Shown: positions 1,508 through 41,100 of the stretch, piece by piece | How positions within the stretch are numbered: the first letter of the stretch is position 1 | How the letters are laid out: the number at the start of each line of letters is the position of its first letter | NCBI RefSeq assembly: GCF_024704835.1 | Contig: NZ_JAMXBE010000001.1 | Location: 124,001 to 188,000, forward strand | Origin: Parapedobacter tibetensis | GTDB lineage: Bacteria; Bacteroidota; Bacteroidia; Sphingobacteriales; Sphingobacteriaceae | Direction of reading: 5' to 3' | DNA length: 64,000 bases | The notes under the pieces: generated by a model | Databases searched by the model: none | What the model was told of the DNA's origin: nothing | The model's input: only the letters and a program-made list of their open reading frames with translations | Made by a program: the position numbers and the translations under genes

Positions 1508-1628
1508 GTTCTCTTTTCGGCTGTCAGCTTACAGTCATTAGCAAGAAGCCTCTACTTATCAGTTTTATTCAGCACCCTTTAAAACCGAAGGGCTCATCAA
1601 TGCCAATAATAACAAATGCGACATCAAT

Positions 1629-1696
1629 AATCTAAAATCGTCAATCTAAAATCGTAAATCGTCAATCTAAAATCGTAAATCGTAAATCTAAAATCA
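1629..1696. repeat. Degenerate repeat array (family A), core AATCTAAAATCGT
   Basis: Irregular tandem units of AATCTAAAATCGT with short AAATCGTC insertions fill the purC-phoH gap. The last unit runs into the phoH stop codon (TGA at 1696-1694). The same words appear in the opposite orientation at 7758-7790, directly after the ccmB stop codon. The unit length varies, so this is not a clean satellite. Confidence 0.75.
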
Positions 1697-2656: not shown

Positions 2657-2710
2657 ATTCTTTTACTATTAATTTTGCTGTAAGCTATATGCGCCCAAAC
2701 CTTTTGCCAT

Positions 2711-2718
2711 CAAAGATA
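2711..2718 (-). promoter_or_regulatory. phoH promoter, -7 element TATCTTTG
   Basis: Exact match to the Bacteroidota -7 consensus TAnnTTTG, read leftwards, about 55 bp before the phoH ATG. No clear -33 TTTG is visible at the expected distance. Confidence 0.6.
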
Positions 2719-2818
2719 GGTATAAATTGGCATTCGTATAATCGAAATAAAAAATCATATTTTGGCTGTTCTGTTGCCCAGAGCGAACGTTACGTCATTA
2801 CATCGTTATGCGCTTTGC

Positions 2819-2963
2819 GGGTGCAATTCAAATTGTCGCATCGGATACGATCAACTTTGACGTCTTTGCGAGGTTGGGTAGGGTTGCGTGAGCCGACCAC
2901 GAAGCAGCTCCTGCACCCCGCTCGGGTTCGCAATGACGGTAAGCGACAATTTGAATTGCACCC
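2819..2963. repeat. Nested palindromic element (REP-like)
   Basis: Outer arms are a perfect 21-bp inverted repeat (2819-2839 and 2943-2963). Inside lies a second pair: CGTCTTTGCGAG at 2861-2872 and TTCGCAATGACG at 2927-2938, one mismatch. The inner pair is the CGTCATTGCGAG-type palindrome seen as dispersed repeats in several bacterial genomes. A half copy occurs at 8975-8987. The whole can fold as a long cruciform or RNA hairpin. Confidence 0.7.
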
Positions 2964-3089
2964 CACTTTGCTAATCTCAAAATTTCGCATTATACTTGCT
3001 GTAGAAGACATCAATGGTACGATTATGGTTAAAGCCATGTGGTAGAACAAGCCGACATAACTATTGGATACTTACGAATTGCGAATAAT

Positions 3090-3119
3090 TGCATATAAAA
3101 GCAAGTTTATCTAAGTTTG
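3090..3119 (+). promoter_or_regulatory. Repeat-borne promoter with TAAGTTTG -7 element
   Basis: TAAGTTTG (3112-3119) fits TAnnTTTG, with TTG at 3089-3091 and a 20-bp spacer. The 30 bases 3090-3119 recur at 39781-39810 with one mismatch; the last 14 (TTTATCTAAGTTTG) recur at 32568-32581. It reads toward the SAM hydroxide adenosyltransferase gene 148 bp downstream. Confidence 0.55.
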
Positions 3120-3266
3120 CACCAATTCTCCTAGTGGTTTTCATCAATGGAAATTTGGAGGTGTATACATTTCTTTACAGGCGGCATCAACGCGTACTTG
3201 ATTGCCAAATGAAAGTGACCGTTTATTTATTGGCAGGGAATATCGAAATTAAGCAGCAACGCTGGT

Positions 3267-4046
3267 ATGGGCATCATCACCTTAACGACTGATTTAGGAC
3301 ATAAGGATTTTTACCAAGCGGCCCTCAAAGGCAGCATCATCAGCCAATTCCCTGCCGTGCAGTTGGTGGATATCTCCCATGATATCCCTCCTTTTGATAT
3401 CCAATATGCTGCCTATGTGCTCAAAAACGCGTATACTTATTTCCCAGCGAAGACTGTGCATTTGATTGGTATTGATTCGGTTTTCGATGAAGAAGCCCGC
3501 TATCTTGCGCTCCGGTATAACAACCACTTCTTCGTGGGGGCGGATAACGGCATCTTTTCCTTGGTGTTAGATGGGGCGCCGCAGGAAATTGTCGAGCTAA
3601 ACATCATCCAAGATTTGAAATACCTCCATTTCCCACTTACCGACATTTTCAGTAAAGCCGCATGTCATTTGGCCAAGGGGGGCAAGCTCACGGAAATAGG
3701 CGACCCTGTGGATTCAGTAGTGGACCGCACATTGGTACAACCCGTCGTGGAGAAAGATAGTTTGAGGGGCAGCGTAGTCTTCATCGATTCGTTTGGCAAT
3801 GTGATCAGCAACATCAGCAAGGAGCTGTTCAACAAGATACAACGCGGACGGAATTTTGTCCTGTATTTCAGGCGCAATGAAACCATTGACCAAATGAGCT
3901 GGCATTACAATGAGGTGCCTGAAGGCGAAAAGCTTTGCCTATTTGGCATCAGTAATTACTTGGAAATTGCCATCAATAAAGGGAATGCCAGTGGACTATT
4001 GGGGCTCAACAAGGGAGATATCATCCGCGTGGAATTCGGGAAATAA
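3267..4046 (+). CDS. SAM hydroxide adenosyltransferase (DUF62 family)
   Basis: 259-residue protein of the DUF62/SAM hydrolase family, which cleaves S-adenosylmethionine to adenosine and methionine using hydroxide; related enzymes are fluorinases and chlorinases. Visible family features are ITLTTDLGHKDFYQAALKG at the N-terminus, VDISHDIPPFD, FVGADNGIF and DSFGNVISNI in the C-terminal domain. The start is the only ATG in a sensible position. Fluorinases carry an extra loop, which is not apparent here, so ordinary SAM hydrolysis is the likelier activity. The next gene starts 32 bp downstream. Confidence 0.88.
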   Translation: MGIITLTTDLGHKDFYQAALKGSIISQFPAVQLVDISHDIPPFDIQYAAYVLKNAYTYFPAKTVHLIGIDSVFDEEARYLALRYNNHFFVGADNGIFSLVLDGAPQEIVELNIIQDLKYLHFPLTDIFSKAACHLAKGGKLTEIGDPVDSVVDRTLVQPVVEKDSLRGSVVFIDSFGNVISNISKELFNKIQRGRNFVLYFRRNETIDQMSWHYNEVPEGEKLCLFGISNYLEIAINKGNASGLLGLNKGDIIRVEFGK

Positions 4047-4078
4047 GGGATTGGTCTGTTTTTTGAAAGGGATACCGA

Positions 4079-4645
4079 ATGTTATTTCATAAGACTTTAA
4101 ATCTGATATATAACTATATGTTGAACGTTGCATTAGCATGTTGCATCCTCACGTTTTCCTTTACCGGATCCTTCGCTCAGCAGGAGACACAAGACACATC
4201 AAGCTATGAAAGCCAGCGCCAGAAGGTGAATGAGCTATTGGTTCAGCGGAGTGCCCGATTTGGCCAATTTGATGAAAGCCTCAAGCAACGCACCGGCATC
4301 TTCGGGCTCAAAACGAAAAAAGACATGCAGGCTTCCATCGATATTCTGAAACAAATCGTATTGACGGACAATGACATTTTCCGTGAAACGAAATTGCTGC
4401 TTGACTATAAAGACTTTGAAAAATCCCAAATTGTAGAACAGGCTTCTGAGTTCGATGGGCGTATCAATGGCTACATCAAAACCATTAGTAAACTACAACG
4501 CGAACAGGAACAGCGCCGACAAGAAATACAATCCTTGCAAAACACCAATCGAATATATTCGGGACTATTGATTTTGGCTTTATTTGGCTTTGTCATCGCC
4601 GTGGTACTTTTCGCGATCCAACGTCAAAAATTGACGAAAGTGTGA
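4079..4645 (+). CDS. Membrane-anchored coiled-coil protein, unknown function
   Basis: 188 residues not recognised as a named family. The N-terminus has a charged start (HK at 4-5), then a hydrophobic stretch ending SFTGSFAQQ, read as a Sec signal peptide. The middle (about 45-150) is rich in E, K, Q and R with heptad-like spacing (ISKLQREQEQRRQEIQSLQ), suggesting a coiled coil. A hydrophobic segment near 158-180 (LLILALFGFVIAVVLFAI) is a C-terminal membrane anchor. A later ATG at 4118 would lose the positive n-region, so 4079 is preferred. It lies between the SAM enzyme and an ABC transporter. Confidence 0.7.
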   Translation: MLFHKTLNLIYNYMLNVALACCILTFSFTGSFAQQETQDTSSYESQRQKVNELLVQRSARFGQFDESLKQRTGIFGLKTKKDMQASIDILKQIVLTDNDIFRETKLLLDYKDFEKSQIVEQASEFDGRINGYIKTISKLQREQEQRRQEIQSLQNTNRIYSGLLILALFGFVIAVVLFAIQRQKLTKV

Positions 4646-4667
4646 TATGTGCTAGTGTTATTGTCTA

Positions 4668-4675
4668 TACTTTTG
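4668..4675 (+). promoter_or_regulatory. ABC transporter promoter, -7 element TACTTTTG
   Basis: Matches TAnnTTTG 25 bp before the ABC transporter ATG and after the stop of the preceding gene. The -33 element is weak. Confidence 0.45.
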
Positions 4676-4700
4676 CCCCTATAAATTTTAGTTATAGGAC

Positions 4701-6527
4701 ATGGCAAGAGCAAGGTTAAATAGTGGGGACGCGCCACCTGAGGACCTACCGAAACCCAAATTGAATAAGGCTACATTACGGAAAGCTGCTAGGTTATTGG
4801 CTTATCTAAGGCCCTACCGAGCAAAGTTTATCGTGGGTATGGTCTTTCTGTTTTTGTCAAGCCTTACAGCGCTTACCTTTCCCGCCCTACTGGGGGGAAT
4901 GATTGATGCCGCGCAGGGCAAACAGAGTTATGCATGGATTCCGGCTGATATTCGTAGCATTGGTGTCATCGCATTCATTATCCTATTTGCCCAATCATTT
5001 GTGTCATTTTTCCGGATACGCTTGTTTGTGGAGGTGGCCGAAAAATCCCTGGCCGATATCCGTCGCGACTCCTACTACAAACTGATTACACTGCCACTCG
5101 ATTTTTTCGCCAATCGCCGGGTGGGCGAGCTCAACAGCCGGCTGTCGGCTGATTTGTCACAAATCCAGGACACGATGACGACCACGCTTGCTGAAATCAT
5201 CAGGCAGGTTCTCTTCCTCACCGGTGGTGTATGCTTATTATTCGTCGTATCTGGAAAACTCACCTTACTCAACCTAAGTATACTACCCATTTTGGTGGTG
5301 ACTGCGGTTGTATTCGGCAGATTCATCCGAAAACTGTCTCGGCAGGCACAGGATAAATTGGCCGAATCCAATACCGTAGTACAAGAGACGCTGCAAGGCA
5401 TCAGTAATGTGAAGGCCTTTGTCAATGAAGCCTATGAGGCCGCCCGTTATGCTAAGGTATTACAATCCGTGATCAAAATTGCTGTCAAAGGCGCCACATT
5501 CCGCGGTATTTTCGCCTCGTTCATCATCTTCTGCCTCTTTGGTGCGGTGGTCGCCGTCATTTGGTATGGCTCGGCACTGGTGGCCTTAGGTGAGATTTCT
5601 GTAGGCGACCTAACCACCTATATCCTCTATTCCATATTCGTGGCAGGCTCCATGGGCAGTTTCCCTGAATTATATGCCAATATCCAGAAAGCAATAGGCG
5701 CTAGCGAACGGGTCATGGAAATCATGGATGAACAACAGGAAGATATAGGCCTACTGCAGGAGGAAAAGATTATTAAGCATCGTATCGACGGAAATGTCGC
5801 ATTTGATGACGTCACATTTGCCTACCCTTCCCGTAAGGAAATCACTGTGCTGAAAAACATTTCGTTCGAAGCACGTGCTGGCGAAAAAATTGCCCTCATA
5901 GGGCCCAGTGGAACAGGTAAATCCACCATCGCCGCCTTAGTACTGCAATTCTACAAACCTGATCGCGGCCGTATTCTTTTCGATGGTCAGGAGGCCAATA
6001 GTTACCCGCTGACTGACATCCGTAATCAGGTGGCCATCGTACCACAGGATGTGCTGTTGTTTGGGGGAACCATCCGCGAAAACATTGCTTATGGTAGGTT
6101 GTCTGCCGATGCTGGAGAAATCATCACCGCAGCCGAACGTGCCAATGCACATGATTTCATCATGGCTTTTCCAGAAGGATATGACACCATGGTGGGTGAG
6201 CGTGGTGTGAAATTGTCCGGCGGCCAACGCCAACGTATTGCCATTGCAAGGGCCCTGCTCAAGGATCCTGCCATCCTCATCCTCGATGAAGCTACATCCT
6301 CATTGGATTCTGAATCGGAACGTCAAGTACAGCAAGCTTTGGAAGAGTTGATGAAAAACCGGACTTCCATCATCATTGCACACCGACTATCCACCATCCG
6401 CCAAGCCGACCAGATTGTCGTGGTTGAATCCGGACAGGTAGTCGCTTCAGGAACACATGAGGAACTCATGGATAAAGGTGAGGGGTTGTATCATCATTTG
6501 TATAAACTTCAATTAGTTGATAAATAA
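4701..6527 (+). CDS. ABC transporter, fused permease and ATPase (MsbA-like exporter)
   Basis: 608-residue half-transporter with an N-terminal six-helix exporter domain (about 40-340) and a C-terminal ATPase domain. Walker A is GPSGTGKST at 401-409, the signature LSGGQRQR starts at 505, Walker B ends in DE at 529-530, and the H-loop is IIAHRLS. This is the layout of type IV exporters such as MsbA, which flip lipid A or drugs and work as homodimers in the inner membrane. The substrate cannot be told from sequence; lipid export is plausible for a Gram-negative but unproven. Confidence 0.88.
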   Translation: MARARLNSGDAPPEDLPKPKLNKATLRKAARLLAYLRPYRAKFIVGMVFLFLSSLTALTFPALLGGMIDAAQGKQSYAWIPADIRSIGVIAFIILFAQSFVSFFRIRLFVEVAEKSLADIRRDSYYKLITLPLDFFANRRVGELNSRLSADLSQIQDTMTTTLAEIIRQVLFLTGGVCLLFVVSGKLTLLNLSILPILVVTAVVFGRFIRKLSRQAQDKLAESNTVVQETLQGISNVKAFVNEAYEAARYAKVLQSVIKIAVKGATFRGIFASFIIFCLFGAVVAVIWYGSALVALGEISVGDLTTYILYSIFVAGSMGSFPELYANIQKAIGASERVMEIMDEQQEDIGLLQEEKIIKHRIDGNVAFDDVTFAYPSRKEITVLKNISFEARAGEKIALIGPSGTGKSTIAALVLQFYKPDRGRILFDGQEANSYPLTDIRNQVAIVPQDVLLFGGTIRENIAYGRLSADAGEIITAAERANAHDFIMAFPEGYDTMVGERGVKLSGGQRQRIAIARALLKDPAILILDEATSSLDSESERQVQQALEELMKNRTSIIIAHRLSTIRQADQIVVVESGQVVASGTHEELMDKGEGLYHHLYKLQLVDK

Positions 6528-32587: not shown

Positions 32588-33337
32588 ATGGCTACACGCG
32601 ACAAGATTTATTTCGCTTCCGATTTTCACTTGGGGGCTCACCTCCATTCCAAGACATGCGAACGGGAGGCACGGATTGTCAGTTGGCTCGATAGCATCAA
32701 AACCAATGCCGCTGAGCTCTATTTAATGGGTGATGTTTTTGACTTTTGGTTTGAATATGCCACCGTGGTACCCAAAGGTTATGTCCGTTTCCTCGGGAAA
32801 CTGGCGGAGCTGGCTGATATGGGTGTGAAAATCACGTTTTTCAAGGGCAACCACGATATGTGGATGTTTGGCTACCTTAAGGACGAACTTGGTGCCGCAG
32901 TCATTGACAACGAACTCATCATCGAACGTGGCGGAAAGACCTTCTACCTGCATCACGGCGATGGGCTTGGCCCCGGCGATAGCAAGTATAAGTTCCTTAA
33001 AAGAATTTTCAGAAGCCGATTATGCCAATGGCTTTTTGCCCGACTGCATCCCAATCTAGGTATCGGCATCGCACAACGGTGGTCGGCCCATAGCCGCATT
33101 GGATCGGGAGGCCAGGAAACATTTCTGGGGGAAGATAATGAATGGCTGGTGGTTTATGTTAAGGAAATCCTGAAAAAACAACATTCTGACTATTTCATTT
33201 TTGGGCACCGCCATCTGCCGTTGGATATCAACTTACCGAATGGCAGCCGGTACATCAACTTAGGGGAGTGGATAAACTTTAGCACATATGCCGTATTTGA
33301 CGGCAAAACATTGGAGTTGAAGGAATGGTTGAAATAA
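32588..33337 (+). CDS. lpxH: UDP-2,3-diacylglucosamine diphosphatase
   Basis: 249-residue metallophosphoesterase with LpxH-type motifs: ASDFHLGAH (about 8-16), MGDVFDFWFEY (about 45-55), KGNHDMWMF (about 83-91), HHGDGLGPGD and FGHRHLPLD. LpxH removes UMP from UDP-2,3-diacylglucosamine to form lipid X in lipid A synthesis. The start is fixed by the promoter that ends 6 nt before the ATG; the first catalytic motif lies only 8 residues in, so no later start is possible. A paralog is encoded at 18727-19578. Confidence 0.82.
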   Translation: MATRDKIYFASDFHLGAHLHSKTCEREARIVSWLDSIKTNAAELYLMGDVFDFWFEYATVVPKGYVRFLGKLAELADMGVKITFFKGNHDMWMFGYLKDELGAAVIDNELIIERGGKTFYLHHGDGLGPGDSKYKFLKRIFRSRLCQWLFARLHPNLGIGIAQRWSAHSRIGSGGQETFLGEDNEWLVVYVKEILKKQHSDYFIFGHRHLPLDINLPNGSRYINLGEWINFSTYAVFDGKTLELKEWLK

Positions 33338-33353
33338 CTATGAACATGATATC

Positions 33354-33683
33354 ATGAACTGGATTATCCTTATTATTGCCGGATTATTTGAAGTCGGTTT
33401 TACCGCAAGCCTTGGTAAGGCGAAAACAACTACTGGGATGGCATCGTATTGGTGGTATGGAAGTTTTGTGGTTTGCCTCACCTTAAGCATGGTGCTGTTG
33501 GTCAAAGCCACGCAGACACTGCCCATAGGCACGGCCTATGCTGTATGGACCGGCATAGGAGCTGTCGGCACCGTATTGGTAGGTATTATTTTCTTCAAGG
33601 AACCGGCCACGTTGTGGCGTTTGGTTTTCATCACCACCCTTATCGGTTCCATCATTGGCCTGAAAGCCGTTTCGCCACATTAA
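33354..33683 (+). CDS. SMR-family transporter, SugE/Gdx type
   Basis: 109-residue four-helix small multidrug resistance protein. The conserved membrane glutamate is Glu 13 (LFEVGF). GTAYAVWTGIGAVGT (about 58-72) is the SugE/Gdx variant of the family signature, as opposed to the drug-exporting EmrE type. Gdx proteins export guanidinium and act as dual-topology dimers. It starts 16 bp after the lpxH-like gene, so there is no room for a guanidine riboswitch, unlike many gdx genes elsewhere. Confidence 0.85.
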   Translation: MNWIILIIAGLFEVGFTASLGKAKTTTGMASYWWYGSFVVCLTLSMVLLVKATQTLPIGTAYAVWTGIGAVGTVLVGIIFFKEPATLWRLVFITTLIGSIIGLKAVSPH

Positions 33684-33769
33684 CTAAATCACCCATCCCA
33701 TGGGTTACTTTGCATTTCGAAACACCATTATACGGTTCATATTCCATTCCGGAAAACCATAAAAAAGCG

Positions 33770-33777
33770 TACTTTTG
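33770..33777 (+). promoter_or_regulatory. prfA promoter, -7 element TACTTTTG
   Basis: TAnnTTTG match with a leader of about 85 nt before the prfA ATG. The region is A/T-rich and the -33 element is unclear. Confidence 0.45.
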
Positions 33778-33864
33778 CATACAATTTTTGCTGTTTCGTT
33801 TTTTTGTCGTTTTATCTTGCTGCTTTTGATTGAACGTAAAAAAAACAAACAAAAACACATAAAT

Positions 33865-34938
33865 ATGTTAGAGAAGTTAAAGGCCATAAAAGATCGTTGG
33901 GAAGAGGTGGAACGCGAATTGAGTAACCCGGATACCGTCAATAATAGGAATCGGTTCGCTAAGCTCAACAAGGAATACAAGGATTTGGGCAAAATTGTAG
34001 ATCAATACCATATCTATAAAAATATGGTTAGCAATATTGAAACCAATAAGGACATCCTCACCAATGAAAAAGACCAGGAATTGCGCGAGATGGCCAAAGA
34101 AGAACTGGATATATTGTTGGAACAAAAGGACCAGAAAGAAGACGAAATACGCTTGATGCTTATTCCTAAGGATCCGGAAGATTCTAAAAATGCCATCCTT
34201 GAAATCCGTGGAGGGACAGGGGGAGATGAAGCGGCCCTGTTTGCTGGCGACTTATACCGGATGTATACGCGTTATTTCGAACAGAAAGGATGGCGTGCCG
34301 AAGTGATGGATGTAACCGAAGGCACCGCTGGCGGTTACAAGGAAGTCATCCTCAAAGTAAATGGTGAAGATGTCTATGGGCAGCTGAAATATGAATCTGG
34401 TGTACACCGCGTGCAACGTGTGCCTGACACCGAAACCCAAGGTCGCGTGCATACCTCAGCAGCCTCCGTGGCTGTGCTCCCCGAAGCGGAGGAAGTAGAT
34501 GTAGAAGTCAATCCAGCGGATGTTGAGATGCAGACGTCACGTTCAGGTGGTGCCGGTGGGCAGAATGTAAATAAGGTAGAAACTAAAGTGCAGCTCACGC
34601 ATAAACCTTCAGGCATTGTAGTCGTATGCCAAGTAGAGCGTTCGCAATTGGCAAACCGAGAGTTGGCCATGGAAATGCTGCGGTCCAAATTATATGAGCT
34701 CGAAGTACAGAAAAAGCATGGCGATGTTTCAGCCAAGCGCAAAACAATGGTTTCAACAGGCGATCGTTCTGCCAAAATCAGGACATACAATTATCCCCAA
34801 GGCCGTGTAACCGAACATCGCATCGGGTTGACCATGTACAATCTTACAGCCATCATGGATGGTGATATACAGGGAATTATCGATGCATTACAATTCGCTG
34901 AAAACGCTGAAAAAATGAAAGAAGGGGCTACGCTATAA
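33865..34938 (+). CDS. prfA: Peptide chain release factor 1
   Basis: Recognises UAA and UAG stop codons and triggers release of the finished protein on the ribosome. 357 residues. The catalytic GGQ is residues 231-233 within [16 protein letters not shown]. The codon-reading loop region is [18 protein letters not shown] with the PxT-like element nearby. The start at 33865 ([20 protein letters not shown]) is the family N-terminus; an upstream in-frame ATG at 33775 would add an unlikely hydrophobic leader. The tRNA-Asp gene follows at 35006. Confidence 0.95.
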
Positions 34939-34955
34939 TTATTTTAAAAAATTTG

Positions 34956-34985
34956 TTTGCAAATAGATAAAACACACTATATTTG
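34956..34985 (+). promoter_or_regulatory. tRNA-Asp promoter (TTTG-N18-TATATTTG)
   Basis: TTTG at 34956-34959 and TATATTTG at 34978-34985, giving a start near 34990 and a 5' leader of about 16 nt before the tRNA. Confidence 0.6.
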
Positions 34986-35005
34986 CAAACCCAAAAGGGA
35001 AAGCA

Positions 35006-35082
35006 GGTTCGGTAGTTCAGCTGGTTAGAATACATGCCTGTCACGCATGGGGTCGCGGGTTCGAGTCCCGTCCGGACCGCCA
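35006..35082 (+). tRNA. tRNA-Asp (anticodon GTC)
   Basis: 77-nt cloverleaf with encoded CCA. Acceptor GGTTCGG (35006-35012) pairs with CCGGACC (35072-35078) with one G-T pair. The anticodon stem CATGC/GCATG holds loop CTGTCAC with anticodon GTC at 35040-35042. The T arm contains the GGTTCGAGTCCC element. The last 24 nt (35059-35082) are repeated exactly at 36819-36842 and with one mismatch at 37724-37746, so its 3' end acts as the attachment site of the islets that follow. Confidence 0.97.
35059..35082. repeat. Attachment site copy 1 (tRNA-Asp 3' end)
   Basis: From the T loop through CCA of the tRNA gene. It matches 36819-36842 over all 24 bases; identity stops immediately on both sides. Confidence 0.8.
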
Positions 35083-35092
35083 AATTAAAACG

Positions 35093-35137
35093 AAAACCCT
35101 TGATAATCAAGTATTATCAAGGGTTTTTTCTTTTTAC
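35093..35137 (+). terminator. Terminator after tRNA-Asp (islet-borne)
   Basis: Perfect 15-bp stem AAAACCCTTGATAAT (35093-35107) with ATTATCAAGGGTTTT (35113-35127), 5-nt loop, then a T-rich run. It lies just inside islet 1, so it probably arrived with the islet; a second strong hairpin just outside the last repeat (37764-37805) may be the original tRNA terminator. Confidence 0.8.
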
Positions 35138-35229
35138 ACTTACAGGATTACTTACATAAAGTTTCAGCTTATACCATACAATGATTAGTGATTATCTCAA
35201 CAATATCAAAAGTTTCCCTATAGTTGCGA

Positions 35230-35253
35230 ACTACTTAACTACACGACTACACT
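35230..35253. repeat. Three 8-bp iteron-like repeats (ACTACACN)
   Basis: Consecutive words ACTACTTA, ACTACACG and ACTACACT, 13 bp before an 18-bp palindrome that contains the same ACTAC word on both strands. They lie about 150 bp from the first attachment copy. Confidence 0.55.
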
Positions 35254-35266
35254 CCTCCAATCATTT

Positions 35267-35284
35267 TTGTAGTGTACACTACAA
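35267..35284. promoter_or_regulatory. 18-bp perfect palindrome TTGTAGTGTACACTACAA
   Basis: Symmetric over all 18 bases, upstream of the decayed SprT-like gene. It is operator-like or recombinase-site-like; the half-site TTGTAGTGT includes the complement of the nearby ACTAC iterons. Confidence 0.6.
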
Positions 35285-35307
35285 TTTAGAAACTAAGGAA
35301 AATCGCT

Positions 35308-35607
35308 ATGGCAATTATAGAAAAACAATTGCCCCCATCGAGACATTGTTTAACTACTACAACGTTGAATCATTCGATGGCCAAAAGAACTGCCTTATGA
35401 ATCTAAGTCGTAAGAACGGGGCTATGGGCTTCTTTGCACCCCACAGTTGGAATAACAAGGACAGACAACGAACGGGTCATCCACAAGATTAGCGTTAACC
35501 CAGACACATTTAACATCGATGACGAGGAATTGCGGATGACGCTTGTCCAAGAAATGTGCCGCCTGTTAAAAACACAAATGCATTTTAGTGTATTTGATGT
35601 GAAATAA
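35308..35607 (+). pseudogene. Decayed SprT-like metalloprotease gene
   Basis: Three reading frames together give a SprT-like protein of the kind found on Bacteroidota mobile elements: MAIIEKQLPPSR, then after a shift near 35340 ETLFNYYNVESFDGQ...LMNLSRKNGAMGFFAP, then after a shift near 35460 RTDNERVIHKISVNPDTF and LRMTLVQEMCRLLK. The expected zinc motif HExxH reads QEMCR, so both metal histidines are lost. Two frameshifts plus the lost motif make it a pseudogene. It ends at TAA 35605-35607, next to the higBA promoter. Confidence 0.6.
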
Positions 35608-35627
35608 ATACTGTATATTTGCAGTAT
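35608..35627 (+). promoter_or_regulatory. higBA promoter and operator
   Basis: The -7 element TATATTTG (35614-35621) is enclosed by the inverted repeat ATACTG (35608-35613) / CAGTAT (35622-35627). TTTG at 35593-35596 may be the -33 element with a short 17-bp spacer. A repressor bound to the palindrome would cover the -7 box, as expected for HigA autoregulation. Confidence 0.6.
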
Positions 35628-35640
35628 GCAATAAGCAACG

Positions 35641-35931
35641 ATGATAGAATCAATAAAACACAAGGGGCTTAAATTGTACTGGAACAAAGGAGACAGTAGC
35701 AAACTACCCCCCAACATGATACGTAAAATCGAAGAGGTTATGGCTATCATCGACAACATTGAAAAGGTTCCCGATGACCTATATGTTTTCCCTGCATATG
35801 GCCCGCACCCATTAAAGGGGGATAGAAAAGGAGATTGGGCGCTCGCTGTTAGTGGCAACTGGCGCATTACATTCAAGTTTGACAACAATGCGGCAATGGC
35901 AAGCGATTTGAATTTAGAAGATTATCATTAA
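35641..35931 (+). CDS. higB: HigB-type toxin (RelE/ParE superfamily)
   Basis: 96-residue toxin of the HigB family, ribosome-dependent mRNA endonucleases. The N-terminal SIKHKGLKLYWNKGDSSKLP and the C-terminal GDWALAVSGNWRITFKF strand pattern match HigB-1/GraT-like proteins. The toxin gene precedes its antitoxin, the order typical of higBA. Higa follows 13 bp downstream. It lies in islet 1 beside a tRNA-Asp attachment site. Length and reading frame are intact, so the pair is probably active. Confidence 0.88.
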   Translation: MIESIKHKGLKLYWNKGDSSKLPPNMIRKIEEVMAIIDNIEKVPDDLYVFPAYGPHPLKGDRKGDWALAVSGNWRITFKFDNNAAMASDLNLEDYH

Positions 35932-35944
35932 AAAAGGAGATAAA

Positions 35945-36244
35945 ATGGACAGGCACATCAGCACTTATATACACCCCGGACGGGTGTTCATGGAGCAAGT
36001 GGTAAAACCCCATAACCTTAAGATAGGGGAAGTAGCGGAGCTTTTACAGGTGTCCCGCTTAACAATATCGAAAATAGTCAATGGCAGGGGGGGCATAACA
36101 CCAAACATAGCGTTGCGCATTCAAGATGTTTTTGGCGGTACCGCAGACTTTTGGTCACGCATGCAGAATAAATACGACATGGCAATGGCCATAAACGAAT
36201 ACAACAAAAACAAGCCGTCGCTAAGGAAGTTTGAACACGCATAG
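35945..36244 (+). CDS. higA: HigA-type antitoxin (XRE/HTH)
   Basis: 99-residue helix-turn-helix antitoxin. It begins with the HigA hallmark IHPGRVFMEQVVKP (about 9-22); the HTH is KIGEVAELLQVSRLTISKIVNGRGGITPNIALRIQDVFG (about 26-64), followed by ADFWSRMQNKYDM. HigA neutralises HigB and represses its own operon, fitting the palindrome over the promoter at 35608-35627. A hairpin terminator follows 3 bp after the stop. Confidence 0.9.
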   Translation: MDRHISTYIHPGRVFMEQVVKPHNLKIGEVAELLQVSRLTISKIVNGRGGITPNIALRIQDVFGGTADFWSRMQNKYDMAMAINEYNKNKPSLRKFEHA

Positions 36245-36247
36245 AGA

Positions 36248-36265
36248 AAGCCCCAAAAGGGGCTT
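36248..36265 (+). terminator. higBA terminator hairpin
   Basis: Perfect 7-bp stem AAGCCCC/GGGGCTT with AAAA loop, 3 bp after the higA stop. The T run after it is poor, so termination may be partial; it also separates higA from the opposite nrdI gene. Confidence 0.65.
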
Positions 36266-36304
36266 CCTGATTTATTGCGAAAGATGGATTTTTTCATATG
36301 GGCA

Positions 36305-36685
36305 TCAAAGAATATGTTCGCTTTTTGTCACATGACTGATATAGGCATCCACATCGCTATCCAATCCCGACAACTCAAAAACCAAGGCTATCGGCACCCC
36401 AAAACCAACACTGATACGCTTTGCCGCCATCCCATAGGTTTTTCCCCAATTCCTGTTTCCACTGCTTGAAACAGATTCGATAAACTTCCAATTTCTTTCC
36501 ATGAAAAGATAGGTAGTAAAAGGTATTTCCCCATCGCTATCGGTATAGGTTATCAAATGCCCCCTCTCTTTGACCGTCATATCCGGTTCTATCCGGACCG
36601 TGGTAAAGTCCGGCCTCTTGGCTTTTATATTGTCCACAAAGCGGTTTACGTTGCCCGTGCGGCTATCAAAATAAATTATGGCCAT
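36305..36685 (-). CDS. nrdI: NrdI-like flavodoxin (orphan)
   Basis: 126-residue FMN protein of the NrdI family, which supplies the oxidant for assembling the manganese-tyrosyl cofactor of class Ib ribonucleotide reductase. The FMN phosphate loop is SRTGNVNRF (8-16) and the isoalloxazine loop SSSGNRNWG (73-81); VPIALVFELSG is the usual end of the fold. The start at 36685 is set by the family N-terminus and by a TACTTTTG element 20 bp upstream. No nrdE or nrdF is nearby, which is unusual. It is part of tRNA islet 1. Confidence 0.85.
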   Translation of the reverse strand: MAIIYFDSRTGNVNRFVDNIKAKRPDFTTVRIEPDMTVKERGHLITYTDSDGEIPFTTYLFMERNWKFIESVSSSGNRNWGKTYGMAAKRISVGFGVPIALVFELSGLDSDVDAYISHVTKSEHIL

Positions 36686-36705
36686 TAGGGGGGTGTCTTT
36701 TGTAA

Positions 36706-36713
36706 CAAAAGTA
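36706..36713 (-). promoter_or_regulatory. nrdI promoter, -7 element TACTTTTG
   Basis: TAnnTTTG match read leftwards, 20 bp before the nrdI ATG. About 35 bp further upstream lies the inverted repeat AGTTGTCCAACAACT (36748-36762), a possible operator. Confidence 0.5.
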
Positions 36714-36818
36714 ACCAAAAAGTGCGGAAAAACCCATAGAGGACGAAAGTTGTCCAACAACTGGGGAACATCACACACAAGCAATTTAAGAAAAAGTAGA
36801 TTAAGGTAAATTATAAAT

Positions 36819-36842
36819 GTTCGAGTCCCGTCCGGACCGCCA
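36819..36842. repeat. Attachment site copy 2 (tRNA-Asp 3' end)
   Basis: 24 bases identical to the end of the tRNA-Asp gene, including CCA. It marks the junction of islet 1 and islet 2. Confidence 0.8.
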
Positions 36843-36891
36843 GCATAATGCGCAATCATCTATAAAAAAGGTGGTTGCGTTTTTGTTTTTA

Positions 36892-36938
36892 GGCCTGGTA
36901 GTATCAGTTGGATAGTCTACCGGTCTCCCTTCAGACAC
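36892..36938 (+). other. tRNA-like 5' half fragment
   Basis: The stretch contains GGTAGTATCAGTTGGATAG, which resembles a tRNA D arm (TAGT.TCAGTTGGATAG), followed by CTACCGGTCTCC, like the end of the D stem and the anticodon stem start. The anticodon stem does not close properly and no T arm follows, so it is not a functional tRNA. It may be a trace of another tRNA captured by an element, or chance. Confidence 0.3.
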
Positions 36939-37120
36939 ATATTCCCCTCAGGCATGCCTTGGCTTTTTTTCCGTTCATTGTAATTCTTTGCCACATAATC
37001 CACTGTTGGCTGCTTATGTAGATCGCTTGTCTCCATTTCCTGCTGCTTATTAGCTGTCGAATCCTGCTGCGTGGACTTGTTATCCACTTTTTAGCATTAC
37101 TATCATAATATGGCAAAAAA
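36939..37120. other. Non-coding or decayed stretch of islet 2
   Basis: Read leftwards it contains a 56-codon frame beginning at GTG (VDNKSTQQDSTANKQQEMETSD...) with a Gln/Lys-rich composition like the tail of a mobilisation protein, but with a stop codon just upstream. It is too short to assign; it may be the remnant of a larger gene. Confidence 0.3.
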
Positions 37121-37123
37121 CCC

Positions 37124-37131
37124 TATATTTG
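37124..37131 (+). promoter_or_regulatory. Promoter of RHH-yafQ pair, -7 element TATATTTG
   Basis: TAnnTTTG match 19 bp before the ATG at 37151. It is identical to the -7 boxes of higBA and the tRNA-Asp gene. No clear operator palindrome is seen. Confidence 0.5.
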
Positions 37132-37150
37132 TATTTAAAGTAATATCACA

Positions 37151-37402
37151 ATGAATACTATAAGCGTAAAAAAATCAACGTCCCTGCGGATTGACCGCGA
37201 TTTGTACGACTACATCGAACGCCAGGCTCGAAAGGAAAACAGGAGCGTAAACAATTACATCGAGACCATACTCTCAAAGGCTACGGATTTCAAGTTACCA
37301 AACAGGGAAACGCGAGAGGCTATAGCCGAACTGGAAAGGGACAAGGCAACGCTAAAACGGTATTCCGGTGCCAAGAACCTGTTTGAGGATTTAGAGGGAT
37401 AG
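37151..37402 (+). CDS. Ribbon-helix-helix antitoxin
   Basis: 83 residues. The N-terminal SVKKSTSLRIDRDLYDYIERQARKENRSVNNYIETIL gives the strand and two helices of a ribbon-helix-helix DNA-binding domain (about 5-41). The C-terminal helix with REAIAELERDKATLKRY and the end NLFEDLEG is the part expected to wrap the toxin. It probably represses its own promoter together with the toxin. The yafQ-type toxin gene starts 1 bp after its stop codon. It is carried by tRNA islet 2. Confidence 0.82.
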   Translation: MNTISVKKSTSLRIDRDLYDYIERQARKENRSVNNYIETILSKATDFKLPNRETREAIAELERDKATLKRYSGAKNLFEDLEG

Positions 37403-37403
37403 G

Positions 37404-37691
37404 ATGGGCAAATACGTAGTCGTCCCGTCCGGAAGGTTTCGTAAGGACATCAAGAAATACCTAAAGAAGCAACGAGAAAGGGATGCCATCTATGAAGTCA
37501 TCGACCTGTTGGTAGATGGTGGGAATTCGTCCATCCCTGTAAGCATGAAGCCCCATAAGCTATCAGGCAATTACGCAGGATATTGGGAATGCCACGTCCT
37601 GCCCGACCTGTTGATTATATGGGGACAGACGGAACAACCCGACAAAGAGGTTTACCTTGTGAGGATTGGGTCGCATTCCGAATTATTCTAA
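37404..37691 (+). CDS. YafQ-family toxin (mRNA endonuclease)
   Basis: 95-residue RelE-superfamily toxin. Catalytic residues of E. coli YafQ appear to align with His 51 (PHKLSGNYAGYWE), His 64 and Asp 68 (ECHVLPDLLIIW), and His 91 (GSHSELF). YafQ cleaves mRNA on the ribosome, causing growth arrest. All key residues are present, so the toxin should be active. The gene ends 32 bp before the third tRNA-Asp repeat, which makes the pair the last cargo of islet 2. Confidence 0.88.
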   Translation: MGKYVVVPSGRFRKDIKKYLKKQRERDAIYEVIDLLVDGGNSSIPVSMKPHKLSGNYAGYWECHVLPDLLIIWGQTEQPDKEVYLVRIGSHSELF

Positions 37692-37723
37692 GATGAACAA
37701 TATGGACAAAATGCCTCTGCGAA

Positions 37724-37746
37724 TTCGAGTCCCGTCCGGATCGCCA
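37724..37746. repeat. Attachment site copy 3 (tRNA-Asp 3' end, one mismatch)
   Basis: 23 bases matching the tRNA end except GGATC for GGACC. It is probably the oldest junction with the chromosome. Confidence 0.75.
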
Positions 37747-37763
37747 GTCTTAAGGTCAAAAAA

Positions 37764-37805
37764 AATACAAAAGCTTGCAGTCAAATGATTGCAAGCTTTT
37801 GTATT
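37764..37805 (+). terminator. Strong terminator, probably the original tRNA-Asp terminator
   Basis: Perfect 16-bp stem AATACAAAAGCTTGCA (37764-37779) with TGCAAGCTTTTGTATT (37790-37805). It stands 17 bp after the third attachment copy, the place where a tRNA terminator would have been before the islets entered. Confidence 0.75.
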
Positions 37806-37825
37806 TTACGATAATCCTAAAATAT

Positions 37826-38017
37826 TCATTTTTCCTCCCTTACATGCACTCCGATGGTCCGAGTCATGGAACTTCCGTCTGCATCCGTAACCGTCACTTC
37901 GATCCTATGCAGACCCGGATCAGCAGCCTTAACGTGCAACGTAGTCTCTTTATTCCCTGCACCTAAGAAGGTGTAAACAGGTTGGTCGGTCAGAAAGCAT
38001 CTCCAACTTTGTCGCAT
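37826..38017 (-). pseudogene. Fragment of a secreted or surface protein (C-terminal end)
   Basis: 63 codons read leftwards. The segment ETTLHVKAADPGLHRIEVTVTDADGSSMTRTIGVHV looks like an Ig/PKD-type beta sandwich, or the C-terminal domain of PBP1C-like proteins, and ends naturally with VREEK. A TAA sits directly before its ATG and no protein-like sequence lies upstream, so it is probably the stump of a longer gene truncated near the islet insertion. The parent family is not certain. Confidence 0.4.
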
Positions 38018-38140
38018 TTACCCCCTTACATTGTCATATTCACCCATTTCAACACACTGATTAACAGCTTATGTTTGTATTGTCATTCCTTCGCAAAATT
38101 TGCAGTGAATGAACAGGAGTTATAAACAAACCAATTAACC
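38018..38140. other. Short spacer, nothing recognised
   Basis: Between the gene fragment and the DUF1801 gene. A/T-rich, with no clear TAnnTTTG element close to the next start. Confidence 0.4.
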
Positions 38141-38548
38141 ATGGAAAAAAGCAAAACACCTGGCTTCAGTAGCGTAGATGAGTACTTAACCAGCCTTGGG
38201 GATGAAGCATCAGCTACATTGAAACGCGTGCGAACCATTATCAAAGAGGCGGCTCCCGAAGCGGAAGAAACCATCAGCTATCAAATGCCCGCCTATAAAT
38301 ACCACGGCATGCTTATCTATTTTGCTGCATGGAAAAACCATTGGGGTCTATATCCTGCCAGTTCCGCAACAAGGGAGTTCTTCAAGGATGAGCTTGCGAA
38401 TTACAAACAATCCAAGGGAACCATTCAATTCCCTTGGAATGCCCCCTTGCCCGAAGATTTGATAACACAGATTGTCAAAAAAAGGGTTGTGGAAAACATG
38501 GAAGCAGCAAAGGAAAAAACCACGAAGACAAGGAAAATTAAGCATTAA
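38141..38548 (+). CDS. DUF1801 (YdhG-like) family protein
   Basis: 135 residues. VDEYLTSLGDEASATLKRVRTIIKEAAPEAEETISYQMPAYKYHG is the standard DUF1801 opening, including the ISYQMPAY motif; KNHWGLYPAS and KGTIQFPWNAPLP follow. A B. subtilis homolog (YdhG) was proposed as a frataxin-like iron chaperone, but the role of this family is unsettled. The C-terminus is Lys-rich. The VOC-family gene follows 18 bp later, so they are probably cotranscribed. Confidence 0.85.
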   Translation: MEKSKTPGFSSVDEYLTSLGDEASATLKRVRTIIKEAAPEAEETISYQMPAYKYHGMLIYFAAWKNHWGLYPASSATREFFKDELANYKQSKGTIQFPWNAPLPEDLITQIVKKRVVENMEAAKEKTTKTRKIKH

Positions 38549-38566
38549 TTATTTTAAAACAAAAAA

Positions 38567-39076
38567 ATGGAAAAGCGAATTTCAAATCAAAAGATCACCA
38601 CAAACCTATGGTTTGACAGCGAGGCTGAAGCCGCAGCGAAATTTTATACCTCGGTCTTCAAAGATTCCAAAATCGGCAGGATTTCCCGTTACACCAAAGA
38701 TGGGTTTGAATTCCATCAAATGCCTGAAGGATCAGTAATGACCGTCGAATTCATCATCGAAGGGCAGGAATTTGTGGCGTTGAATGGAGGCCCAGTATTT
38801 AAATTCAATGAATCCATATCGTTTATTGTCAATTGCGAAACCCAGGAGGAAATAGACTACTATTGGAAGAAGCTTACCGAGGGTGGCGATGAAAAGGCTC
38901 AAGTATGCGGATGGCTCAAGGACAAATTCGGCGTATCGTGGCAGGTGGTACCCACGGTATTGAATGACATGATACTGGATCCAGACCCTGCTAAAGCAGG
39001 CCGAGTGATGCAAACCATGCTGCAGATGAAGAAACTGGATATTGCGCCGTTAAAGGAAGCATACGAACAAGGATGA
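38567..39076 (+). CDS. VOC-superfamily protein (PhnB-like)
   Basis: 169 residues of the vicinal oxygen chelate fold in the PhnB / '3-demethylubiquinone methyltransferase-like' subfamily. Typical elements are KITTNLWFDSEAEAAAKFYTSVFKDSKIG, the GFEFHQMPEGSVMTVEFIIEGQEFVALNGG strand set and GWLKDKFGVSWQVVP. Despite the historical name it is not expected to be a methyltransferase. It may bind a small molecule or metal; its role is unknown. It follows the DUF1801 gene; such small genes often occur together. Confidence 0.85.
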   Translation: MEKRISNQKITTNLWFDSEAEAAAKFYTSVFKDSKIGRISRYTKDGFEFHQMPEGSVMTVEFIIEGQEFVALNGGPVFKFNESISFIVNCETQEEIDYYWKKLTEGGDEKAQVCGWLKDKFGVSWQVVPTVLNDMILDPDPAKAGRVMQTMLQMKKLDIAPLKEAYEQG

Positions 39077-39126
39077 TGGGTTGCACTCAACCGGATAGGC
39101 AATGTGGATACATAAATAATAAGATT

Positions 39127-39672
39127 ATGGCACTCTTCATAAATCGGATAAAGCCTTCGGGGAATATTGCCGAAAAGGACTCAATTGGTAAAACCGCCGT
39201 ACTTTCAAATAGCAAGGTTGTATTGAATGTGCTGACATATGCCGATGCCGAACCTTTTTTCAGGCTGTATTCCAATCCGGAATTATATGATGCAGATGAG
39301 TGTCCCATCCAGTCAGGCGATACACCGGAAAGCTTCTCGCTCCGCATTGTTGCGCGTTGTGAAATGGTCTGGACCATCCGCCTGGCTACATGCCCAGATG
39401 CCATCATCGGGGACTGTGCGTTGCACCACTGGGATAGCGAAAATGCAGAAATCGAATTTGGCGGTTCGCTCTTGCCGGAGTTTTGGGGACAGGGCATTAT
39501 GCCTTCGGCTTTCCAATCAGTCATCGCTTTCGCCAAAGAGGAATATGGTGTGAAGTCGGTTGTAAGCCATACACTGACGGGAAACCAAAAAGCTATCCGA
39601 TTTGCCAATAAAATGGGGTTTAAGCAAGTAACCGTATCGGACGGCCATATCCATTGGGTAAAAATAGTATAG
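39127..39672 (+). CDS. GNAT-family N-acetyltransferase (RimJ/RimL type)
   Basis: 181 residues. After a 30-residue lead, VVLNVLTYADAEPFFRLYSNPELY resembles the first part of RimJ/RimL-type acetyltransferases. The acetyl-CoA region is EIEFGGSLLPEFWGQGIMPSAFQSVIAFAKEEYG (about 117-150), and VVSHTLTGNQKAIRFANKMGFKQV is the usual C-terminal motif. The start at 39127 gives a sensible N-terminus; ATG 39073 overlaps the previous gene's end. Substrate unknown. Confidence 0.82.
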   Translation: MALFINRIKPSGNIAEKDSIGKTAVLSNSKVVLNVLTYADAEPFFRLYSNPELYDADECPIQSGDTPESFSLRIVARCEMVWTIRLATCPDAIIGDCALHHWDSENAEIEFGGSLLPEFWGQGIMPSAFQSVIAFAKEEYGVKSVVSHTLTGNQKAIRFANKMGFKQVTVSDGHIHWVKIV

Positions 39673-39754
39673 GTAGAAAGTGAAAATATCACCATAGTTT
39701 TACCCATATTTCCTCTATAAAAACTCCCTAATGGCAGAGGAGAGACCGATAAAC

Positions 39755-39795
39755 TTGCTTTTATATGCAATCAATTATACTGCATATAAAAGCAA
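39755..39795. repeat. Inverted repeat TTGCTTTTATATGCA next to a repeat-borne promoter
   Basis: Arms 39755-39769 and 39781-39795 pair perfectly over 15 bp with an 11-nt loop; allowing one mismatch the stem extends to 19 bp. The right arm continues into the promoter copy at 39781-39810. Since the left arm is missing at the other copy (3090-3119), that copy may be a truncated element. Confidence 0.6.
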
Positions 39796-39810
39796 ATTTA
39801 TCTAAGTTTG
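39781..39810 (+). promoter_or_regulatory. Repeat-borne promoter, TAAGTTTG, before DUF1772 gene
   Basis: 29 of 30 bases identical to 3090-3119. The -7 element is 39803-39810 and the ATG is 40 bp downstream. The -33 position lacks TTG. Confidence 0.5.
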
Positions 39811-39850
39811 TGGAAGACCCCGGGGTTATCCTTATAAAGTAAAATTGACC

Positions 39851-40345
39851 ATGATGATTTTTTTTAACTTTATTCTTTTAGTAACCGCTATACTAATGGC
39901 TTTAATCAGTGGCCTTTTCTATGCTTATTCCTGCTCAGTGAATATCGGCTTGGGCCGATTGGCGGATGCCGAATACTTAGGTGCCATGCAATCCATCAAC
40001 AAAGCCATTCTAAACCCATGGTTTTTCGCCAGTTTCATCGGCACAGCGATTGCAACGCCCCTCAGCACATGGATGTCATATCAAATGGATGGAACCTCTA
40101 TGTCCTTTTATCTATTATTGATGGCATCGATTGCATACCTCATTGGTGTTTTCGGAGTAACAGTGGTAGGTAACATACCATTGAATGAATCGCTTGATAA
40201 ATTCAATATCCATACTTCAACACCGGAGGAAATCACTATCCAGCGGTTGGCTTTTGAGGAATCCTGGAACAAGTATAATCTTATCCGTACGCTGGCCAAC
40301 GTACTCGCGTTAATATTGTTATTATGGGGCCTCATTAAAAGGTAA
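39851..40345 (+). CDS. DUF1772-like integral membrane protein
   Basis: 164 residues with four membrane helices. The N-terminal FNFILLVTAILMALISGLFYAYSCSVNIGLGRL, the WFFASFIGTAI helix and VTVVGNIPLNESLD (with the NxPLN motif) match the DUF1772 / anthrone-oxygenase-like family. The activity in bacteria is unknown. The start is taken at ATG 39851; ATG 39854 is equally possible, and a TTG at 39845 is less likely. Confidence 0.8.
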   Translation: MMIFFNFILLVTAILMALISGLFYAYSCSVNIGLGRLADAEYLGAMQSINKAILNPWFFASFIGTAIATPLSTWMSYQMDGTSMSFYLLLMASIAYLIGVFGVTVVGNIPLNESLDKFNIHTSTPEEITIQRLAFEESWNKYNLIRTLANVLALILLLWGLIKR

Positions 40346-40503
40346 TCCAACCAGCCGCCGTGAATGGGTCAATTTGAAACAATTAATCAGTTCATTTCTG
40401 AAATAAATGTAATCGTTAAAACAATATAAAAAGCTAAAATATTTGGTAAATAAAATCATAATTCTTAAATTTACTAATTGTTTTAGTTTATGCGATTACA
40501 ACT

Positions 40504-41100
40504 ATGGATTTCAACGGATTAACCCTAAACGAGTACCTATTAATCATTGAGCCGGAGGCCAGTGTTAAACAGCAAATTCAACGATTCAAACGGTATTTTA
40601 TACAAAGCTACCGTTTCAGCAACGCCATTGTCACCCGCACCCACCTTACACTGATGAGGTGTTTGCAATATGAAAGCTATGAGAGTCGCTTTGTGCAAAA
40701 ACTACGAAACATATCGGCAACAGTTTCCCCGTTTGACATCGAATTACAGGGCTTTGGCAATTTTGGCCATACCCTTTATATTGATGTAAAAACCATCCAT
40801 CCCATACTTGATGTGGTGTCAAACAGGAAGGAAGAGATTAAGCCCTTTGTCAACCGTAATATGAAACAAGCTCCTTTTTTTGTCAAGAAACCACACATCA
40901 CCATTGCCCGGCAGCTTACCCCCACCCAGTGTAATATGGTATGGGCCCTATGGAGTCGGGCAAAATATGAAGGGCGCTTCCACGCGAAGAAAATGCTTCT
41001 TTTGAAGCGGAGGGTAGGCACACGTACCTATCGTAAGGTCGAAAAATTCACCTTCAGGGGTCAGATACCCTACCCTATCCAAGGACGACTTTTTAATTGA
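40504..41100 (+). CDS. 2'-5' RNA ligase / cyclic phosphodiesterase-like protein
   Basis: 198 residues of the 2H phosphoesterase superfamily. The two HxT motifs are THLTLMR (His about 47) and PHITIARQ (His about 130), spaced as in LigT-type proteins. Members ligate or open 2'-5' bonds or cyclic phosphates in RNA or nucleotides. The N-terminal YLLIIEPEASVKQQIQRFKRYF fits the family. It is convergent with the ECF sigma gene, separated by 12 bp. The real substrate is unknown. Confidence 0.82.
   Translation: MDFNGLTLNEYLLIIEPEASVKQQIQRFKRYFIQSYRFSNAIVTRTHLTLMRCLQYESYESRFVQKLRNISATVSPFDIELQGFGNFGHTLYIDVKTIHPILDVVSNRKEEIKPFVNRNMKQAPFFVKKPHITIARQLTPTQCNMVWALWSRAKYEGRFHAKKMLLLKRRVGTRTYRKVEKFTFRGQIPYPIQGRLFN

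Follow-up and report, generated by a model that had tools for sequence, protein, structure and literature searches.

How two toxin-antitoxin (TA) pairs came to be arrayed in tandem next to a single tRNA gene is the question raised by the tRNA-Asp locus of Parapedobacter tibetensis. The locus was analyzed within a stretch of 64,000 nucleotides (the window) that lies on a 686-kb contig of a 6.0-Mb genome in 85 contigs. The tRNA-Asp 3′ end recurs twice downstream of the gene, and the recurrences delimit two small segments, islet 1 and islet 2, each with one TA pair. The likely answer is that two successive site-specific integrations at tRNA-Asp have decayed to relics that resemble cis-mobilizable elements (CIMEs) and have kept their TA pairs.

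Core repeats and cargo at tRNA-Asp

The tRNA-Asp (GTC) gene at 35006–35082 on the forward strand was identified by ARAGORN, by the Rfam tRNA model, and by a genome search that returned one full match, one 24-nt match, and one 77% partial match elsewhere. It is the only copy found and the putative integration target, its 3′ end probably reconstituted by an islet. Three copies of the core repeat lie on the same strand. Copy 1 (35059–35082) is the tRNA 3′ end itself, from the T arm to CCA. Copy 2 (36819–36842) is identical to it at 24 of 24 positions (GTTCGAGTCCCGTCCGGACCGCCA) and forms the right end of islet 1. Copy 3 (37724–37746) is identical at 22 of 23 positions, forms the right end of islet 2, and is preceded by TGCGAA, as is the right end of an element in Olivibacter sitiensis. 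The repeats end exactly at the tRNA CCA and begin in the T arm, and their start-to-start spacing is 1760 nt for islet 1 and 904 nt for islet 2. Both islets are thus bounded by two core attachment sites at the tRNA-Asp 3′ end. An earlier note, made from the letters of this DNA alone, had reported an exact recurrence of the last 24 nt at the middle position and one with a single mismatch at the distal position. Both were confirmed, and sites like copies 2 and 3 arose in none of 100 shuffles.

No recombinase gene was detected in the islets, in line with the earlier note. The family model PF00589 has eight matches in the genome, where that note had proposed to look for tyrosine recombinases, and all lie off the window's contig. 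When eight tyrosine integrases were compared with positions 33001–41000 by tblastn (E ≤0.01), just 17 tRNA-encoded residues were matched. Integrase, relaxase, and conjugation genes were absent between the cores among the Pfam, NCBIfam, and PHROG family matches. Elsewhere in this genome, integrase-like open frames adjoin tRNA-Pro, tRNA-Ser, tRNA-Arg, and tRNA-Met.

The TA pair of islet 1 is the more completely recognized. A 96-aa HigB-like toxin (35641–35931, forward strand) matches PF05015 (1.1e-11) and the PDB HigB chain 4mct_B (6.3e-19), and a 99-aa HigA-like helix-turn-helix (HTH) antitoxin (35945–36244, forward) matches TIGR02607 over its cut-off (5e-23) and PF01381. Only for HigBA do adjacent toxin and antitoxin models both exceed the cut-off in full. 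In islet 2, a 95-aa YafQ-family toxin (37404–37691, forward) matches PF15738 (1.2e-25) and the PDB entries for HP0892 (1.5e-11) and the mRNA interferase YafQ (4.3e-9); it falls below the cut-off of NCBIfam TIGR00053 (49.7 of 87.25 bits) and exceeds that of the wider RelE_StbE model. Its partner is an 83-aa ribbon-helix-helix (RHH)/Arc-like protein (37151–37402, forward), a putative antitoxin with a sub-threshold match to PF05534 (0.0017) and a match to the Arc-like phrog_582 (1.4e-6).

The remaining cargo of islet 1 points to a larger parent. A SprT-like pseudogene (35181–35607, forward) matches in two frames, its C-terminal half is unmatched, and neither open reading frame (ORF) matched a Pfam, NCBIfam, or PHROG model. 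By tblastn it matched three genes from plasmids, each with a SprT-like annotation. A protein of the congener G008 that itself matches PF10263 has 66% identity to it over 50 aa. At the other end lies a 126-aa NrdI flavodoxin-like gene (36305–36685, reverse strand, start chosen by eye), which matches PF07972 (2e-21) and TIGR00333 over its cut-off (1.3e-22) and is 64% identical to a protein on G008:C130; nrdE and nrdF are absent from islet 1. Among 60 genomes, the closest relatives of the SprT piece and of NrdI both lie on G008:C130, in a cluster that also has Rep3, UmuD/UmuC-like, SSB-like, and HMCES-like genes (PF10263, PF07972, and Rep3 by domain match, the remaining genes by eye). SprT, a middle gene, and NrdI have the same order and orientation in islet 1 and in this cluster, and HigBA occupies the place that SSB holds there. 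With its Rep3 gene the cluster is plasmid-like and not a proven integrative and conjugative element (ICE). Because the SprT gene is broken and the pieces match the G008 cluster, islet 1 looks like a fragment of a larger element rather than a designed minimal unit. Unlike islet 1, islet 2 yielded no parent cluster. The cargo had been read in the earlier note as higBA, nrdI, and a dead SprT-like gene (1.76 kb), followed by an RHH-yafQ pair (0.9 kb); the family models, tblastn, and the G008 match bear this out, the RHH assignment at a sub-threshold level only.

Other traces of the NrdI region were seen. A second, partial NrdI relic elsewhere in the window's genome (G000:C17:27773-27922, L170) has 83% DNA identity to the islet 1 gene over 168 nt. 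A 33-nt block after the nrdI stop (36284–36315) is 97% identical to a G008 block (L169 5465-5497) that lies about 8 kb from the G008 nrdI in the opposite orientation.

A promoter identity linking the TA genes to the tRNA was also considered. The earlier note had pointed to alike -7 boxes, and TATATTTG is indeed present upstream of the tRNA, higB, and the RHH gene. It occurs nine times in the window, and the looser TAnnTTTG occurs 64 times, on both strands; the common -7 boxes are therefore ordinary, and the link was rejected.

Congeners and the probable order of insertion

The locus was compared with eight congeners, G001–G008. The region upstream of tRNA-Asp is alike in all eight; in the window, tRNA-Asp follows a 387-aa ORF (33775–34938) that we take to be prfA. 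Each congener genome has one core match (≤2 mismatches), and a second core copy was found in none of them in the ~15–17 kb downstream of tRNA-Asp. With a single copy in 8/8 congeners and an upstream region that is alike, the repeats are therefore insertions, and the generic tRNA duplication in all strains that the earlier note had considered is not what the congeners display. The next conserved block was found in four congeners, G001, G002, G006, and G007, and the DNA that separates it from tRNA-Asp differs among them. In a wider survey, exact truncated cores were present in 3/399 family genomes (G000, which is the window's own, G027, and G066) and in 2/395 phylum genomes (G000 and G799); the pattern allowed no mismatch and demanded a non-G before the T arm, and so misses diverged or longer copies, including the window's distal copy.

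The flanks of the islets suggest which came first. Flank M (36843–36889, forward), which follows core copy 2, contains a terminator-like hairpin at 36850–36880, and in congener G005 it stands directly 3′ of tRNA-Asp. The G005 tRNA-Asp and flank M are 86% identical to the window over 71 nt, core included. Flank M scored 53 between the two genomes, compared to a maximum of 29 in 20000 shuffled pairs, and its hairpin was found in 2/168 genomes, once each, at the window and G005 sites. Judged by these alignments, the site in G005 is nearly empty with respect to islet 1, and the tRNA probably had flank M as its neighbor until islet 1 arrived. Flank M adjoins tRNA-Asp in G005, and the middle repeat has no mismatch where the distal repeat has one; the data therefore suggest that islet 2 inserted first and islet 1 later. 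The left flank of islet 1, flank P (35083–35180, forward), has a terminator-like hairpin at 35092–35128 and no clear relative (best score 28, null maximum 29).

The history that we favor would run as follows. Two site-specific integrations, one after the other, would have taken place at the tRNA-Asp 3′ end, as the repeats indicate. Each element would have brought its own tRNA 3′ end and terminator, so that the only tRNA-Asp gene remained intact. Of the two, islet 2 would have come first, together with flank M, and islet 1 later. The integrase and transfer genes of both elements would since have been lost through deletion and decay, leaving CIME-like remnants bounded by attachment cores, each with an intact-looking TA pair (HigBA and RHH-YafQ). 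The TA pairs were probably kept since antitoxin loss is costly. The relics are probably immobile on their own, and any movement would require an incoming integrase that recognizes the surviving cores.

Several observations weigh against this history. Neither islet contains an integrase remnant, and an integrase-bearing ancestry is therefore drawn from the neighbors of the islets in other genomes. The insertion order draws on one common flank and one mismatch, and the presence of flank M in G005 could reflect vertical inheritance or a shared element end. The comparison of empty and occupied sites in related genomes that the earlier note had proposed gave the G005 site for islet 1 and none for islet 2, whose downstream flank D matched no relative. 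The right ends of both islets are alike at 16/18 nt (36636–36653 in nrdI and 37642–37659 in yafQ), a borderline match (2/300 shuffles, one of six comparisons). At its left end, islet 2 also has an 11-nt sequence that is directly, though imperfectly, repeated (37038 and 37062). If the right-end match and this repeat act as integrase sites, the islets would be less inert than proposed here.

Other occupants of tRNA-Asp and possible movement in trans

The tRNA-Asp gene is an integration hot spot with many states. In G799, from another family, the element at this gene measures 5.15 kb; it encodes a tyrosine integrase (PF00589, Arm-DNA-bind_5) and also has an HTH-like gene, and its zeta-toxin gene (PF06414) has a small neighbor. 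G066 (Olivibacter sitiensis) likewise has a zeta-toxin gene (PF06414) at tRNA-Asp, together with an integrase (PF00589) distinct from that of G799; we infer that the G066 right end, on another contig, belongs to the same element as the integrase end. The G799 and G066 elements share their target and core with the islets, and in both the zeta-toxin gene is accompanied by a small neighbor. They differ in having a tyrosine integrase and end motifs and in a cargo unrelated in sequence, and the G066 ends lie on two contigs. A prophage-like stretch with a G066-type integrase (named by eye) occupies tRNA-Asp in G216, and a ~49-kb island with an integrase at its distal core occupies it in G045. The integrases of G024 and, 2.1 kb downstream, of G014 are 52–53% identical to the integrase of the tRNA-Arg element in the window's genome, and the G021 integrase at tRNA-Asp is 44% identical to the tRNA-Pro one. 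In the congener G006, an integrase N-terminal stump alone is left right after tRNA-Asp (46% over 138 aa). Decayed integrases at tRNAs recur in this genus: a broken integrase lies near tRNA-Leu in the window's genome (G000:C45:271710-272074), and broken or partial G066-type integrase genes stand beside tRNA-Gly in two congeners (L173 in G005 and L174 in G003).

Some arrangements at tRNA-Asp are of other kinds. Near-identical GIY-YIG endonuclease-like ORFs in tandem, with tRNA-Asp 3′ pieces between them (L097 in G074, 1592–3380, and L061 in G019; by eye), and a 3.66-kb duplication of the whole tRNA with transposase-like and AlbA-like genes (G078, by eye) were excluded as distinct phenomena. In G050 (L064), a 15.5-kb island extends from tRNA-Asp to a 38-nt repeat and contains very large RHS-like ORFs, with no recombinase recognized by eye. 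In G008 (L048 ~2020-5963), two serine recombinase-like ORFs, named by eye, lie directly downstream of tRNA-Asp, the first running antisense into the tRNA; this flank is also present in G002 and in G032, from another genus. PMC4383910 names just tyrosine integrases as known to target tRNA genes.

A similar islet is present in G027, from another genus of the same family. It is a 2.24-kb integrase-less islet at tRNA-Asp with an AbiE pair, AbiEi (PADLOC 3.3e-62) and AbiEii (PADLOC 5.8e-94; PF08843 5.6e-31). Like the window islets, it holds a TA pair between tRNA-Asp and the repeat and has no integrase. It differs in that its repeat extends through the terminator, a 12-nt integrase-associated motif stands at both ends, and the pair is AbiE and not HigBA or YafQ. 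Over ~115 nt its left end is similar to the left end of the integrase element in G024 (score 84, null maximum 28), and part of this sequence is also in the G027 distal flank. TA pairs therefore recur in tRNA-Asp elements, as zeta-toxin genes in G066 and G799 and as AbiE in G027.

The principal rival holds that the islets are non-autonomous by design, consisting of core sites and a TA pair that tyrosine recombinases of co-resident elements excise and integrate in trans. We regard this as unlikely for the window. Tandem 9–12-nt motifs beside integrases are probably arm-type sites. The motif AAAAGAACCCC stands beside the integrases of G024, G014, and the tRNA-Arg element of the window's genome, and a count of this 11-mer across 20 relative loci (369,985 bases) gave five sites (one in G014, two in G024, and two in G027), compared to ~0.2 expected by our own estimate. 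The 12-nt AAAAAGAACCCC is found at both ends of the G027 islet (L057, reverse strand); one copy follows the core on the tRNA side by 105 nt, and the other precedes the distal core by 41 nt. By shuffling alone this end motif is not significant (12 nt, null 95% 14; 17/300 shuffles); it carries weight because the same motif stands beside related integrases. Other elements have motifs of their own, AAAGTCCCACC-like in G066 and AATTCGGTTA-like in G799, each at both ends, and ACACGCAAA-type in G045. Judging from G027, motifs of the integrase type can be retained at both ends of an islet that has no integrase.

The window islets gave a mixed result. No motif common to its own two ends exceeds chance in either islet (280/300 shuffles score as high for islet 1 and 297/300 for islet 2), and none of the five element-associated repeat motifs (G066, G799, G024-type, G045, and G021) has an exact site in them. 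Movement in trans would draw support from cores that are intact or nearly so, from the integrase-like frames beside tRNA-Pro, tRNA-Ser, tRNA-Arg, and tRNA-Met, and from the 18-nt right-end match, but that match lies inside nrdI and yafQ, 165 and 64 nt before the cores, and has no left-end counterpart. TGCGAA precedes both the distal core and the right end of the integrase-bearing O. sitiensis element, but the GCG in it is expected from the tRNA itself and the chance for the other three letters is ~1/64 (own estimate), which makes it weak to moderate evidence. Islet 1 also holds a broken gene from a larger cluster, and exact truncated cores are rare in the family and phylum. Movement in trans is plausible for G027 and not supported for the window islets, on which an integrase with other arm-type sites might nevertheless act. 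The earlier note had left the choice between satellites mobilized in trans and successive scars; the single core copy in congeners, the near-empty G005 site, the G008 cluster pieces, and the G006 stump favor the scars.

A broader form of this rival would make tRNA genes of Bacteroidota hosts to minimal mobile TA islets without their own integrase. Such islets would combine a single TA or abortive-infection pair with a core site and with end sites of the integrase type, would be moved in trans by integrases elsewhere in the cell, and would include G027 as an intact member and the window islets as older, worn ones. This generalization is speculative, and we would not expect it to hold.

Searches for further copies bear on the mobility of either unit. 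YafQ relatives (E ≤1e-8) were present in 32/151 family genomes, its own included, at no more than 54% identity, and no displaced tRNA 3′ end was found within ~1.5 kb at the 19 other loci; the window's own locus (L077) was detected by the same pattern. Two YafQ loci (L093 and L094) have a whole tRNA and no 3′-end repeat in the stretch. HigB relatives (E ≤1e-10) were present in 11/150 genomes, its own included, again with no displaced tRNA 3′ end within ~1.5 kb at 16 loci. Of 17 HigB loci, the window's own (L177) shows the repeat, L181 has tRNA-Leu without a good repeat, and the other 15 have no tRNA; one of these, L188, has a single 11-nt T-arm-like match inside the stretch. These relative-locus and core scans gave no second copy of either islet at other places or in other genomes. 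For NrdI, tblastn of the genome and viral contig collections gave no relatives, whereas other searches found them in 13/60 genomes and 284 phage records, and such contig scans therefore reach close relatives only. A 21-nt core occurs in 11 viral contig stretches, ten of them among phage tRNA genes, while L118 ends in tRNA-Asp beside an integrase; no helper phage was identified among the 11.

It is quite improbable that a single integration brought in both islets as one composite element with a core site already inside it. PMC5704250 describes how CIME-ICE tandems are transferred as composite elements, and the islets are small, lie side by side, and share the borderline right-end match. Flank M beside tRNA-Asp in G005, however, fits an intermediate without islet 1, and base composition differs a little (40.8% GC in islet 1 and 44.2% in islet 2). 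An ordinary tandem duplication of the tRNA 3′ end, or a misassembly, with no mobile element is very improbable: some genera of the family commonly have tRNA-Asp genes in tandem, but here the repeat starts in the T arm and ends at CCA, a sublocation class known for tRNA-targeting islands from PMC4383910, cargo genes separate the copies, relatives have integrases at the same place, and all copies lie on one 686-kb contig.

Relation to known elements

Two successive integrations followed by decay would place the islets in a described class. In PMC5704250 and PMC7563491, a CIME is a decayed element that keeps its attachment sites and has lost integration and transfer genes, and the stacking of elements at one site is accretion. 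The islets resemble the CIMEs and tandem accretion at streptococcal sites of ICEs and integrative and mobilizable elements (IMEs) in having attachment cores at a gene 3′ end, no integrase or transfer genes, and a tandem stack. They differ in their host family (Sphingobacteriaceae) and target (tRNA-Asp), in having no functional partner in the stack, and in a cargo of little beyond a TA pair. Cargo-carrying CIMEs measure 1.2–13 kb in PMC7563491, and islet 2 lies below this range; descent of the islets from a parent ICE or IME is putative. TA genes on integrative elements are well known, as PMC5704250 notes. A literature search, with most subscription journals outside its reach, found no earlier description of such islets at tRNA-Asp in Sphingobacteriaceae.

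The islets are also like Islander-type tRNA islands, with a whole tRNA gene, a displaced 3′ fragment, the island between them, and a T-arm/acceptor sublocation. Islander rejects candidates that have no integrase or are smaller than 2 kb, according to PMC4383910, and these filters would miss both islets. Such footprints are therefore likely under-counted. With its paired end motif, the G027 islet allows a direct test of whether TA islets are mobilized in trans. The stack in the window, together with the near-empty site, the integrase-bearing elements, the integrase stump, and the integrase-less TA islet of its relatives, forms a small natural series of TA pairs outliving the elements that carried them.

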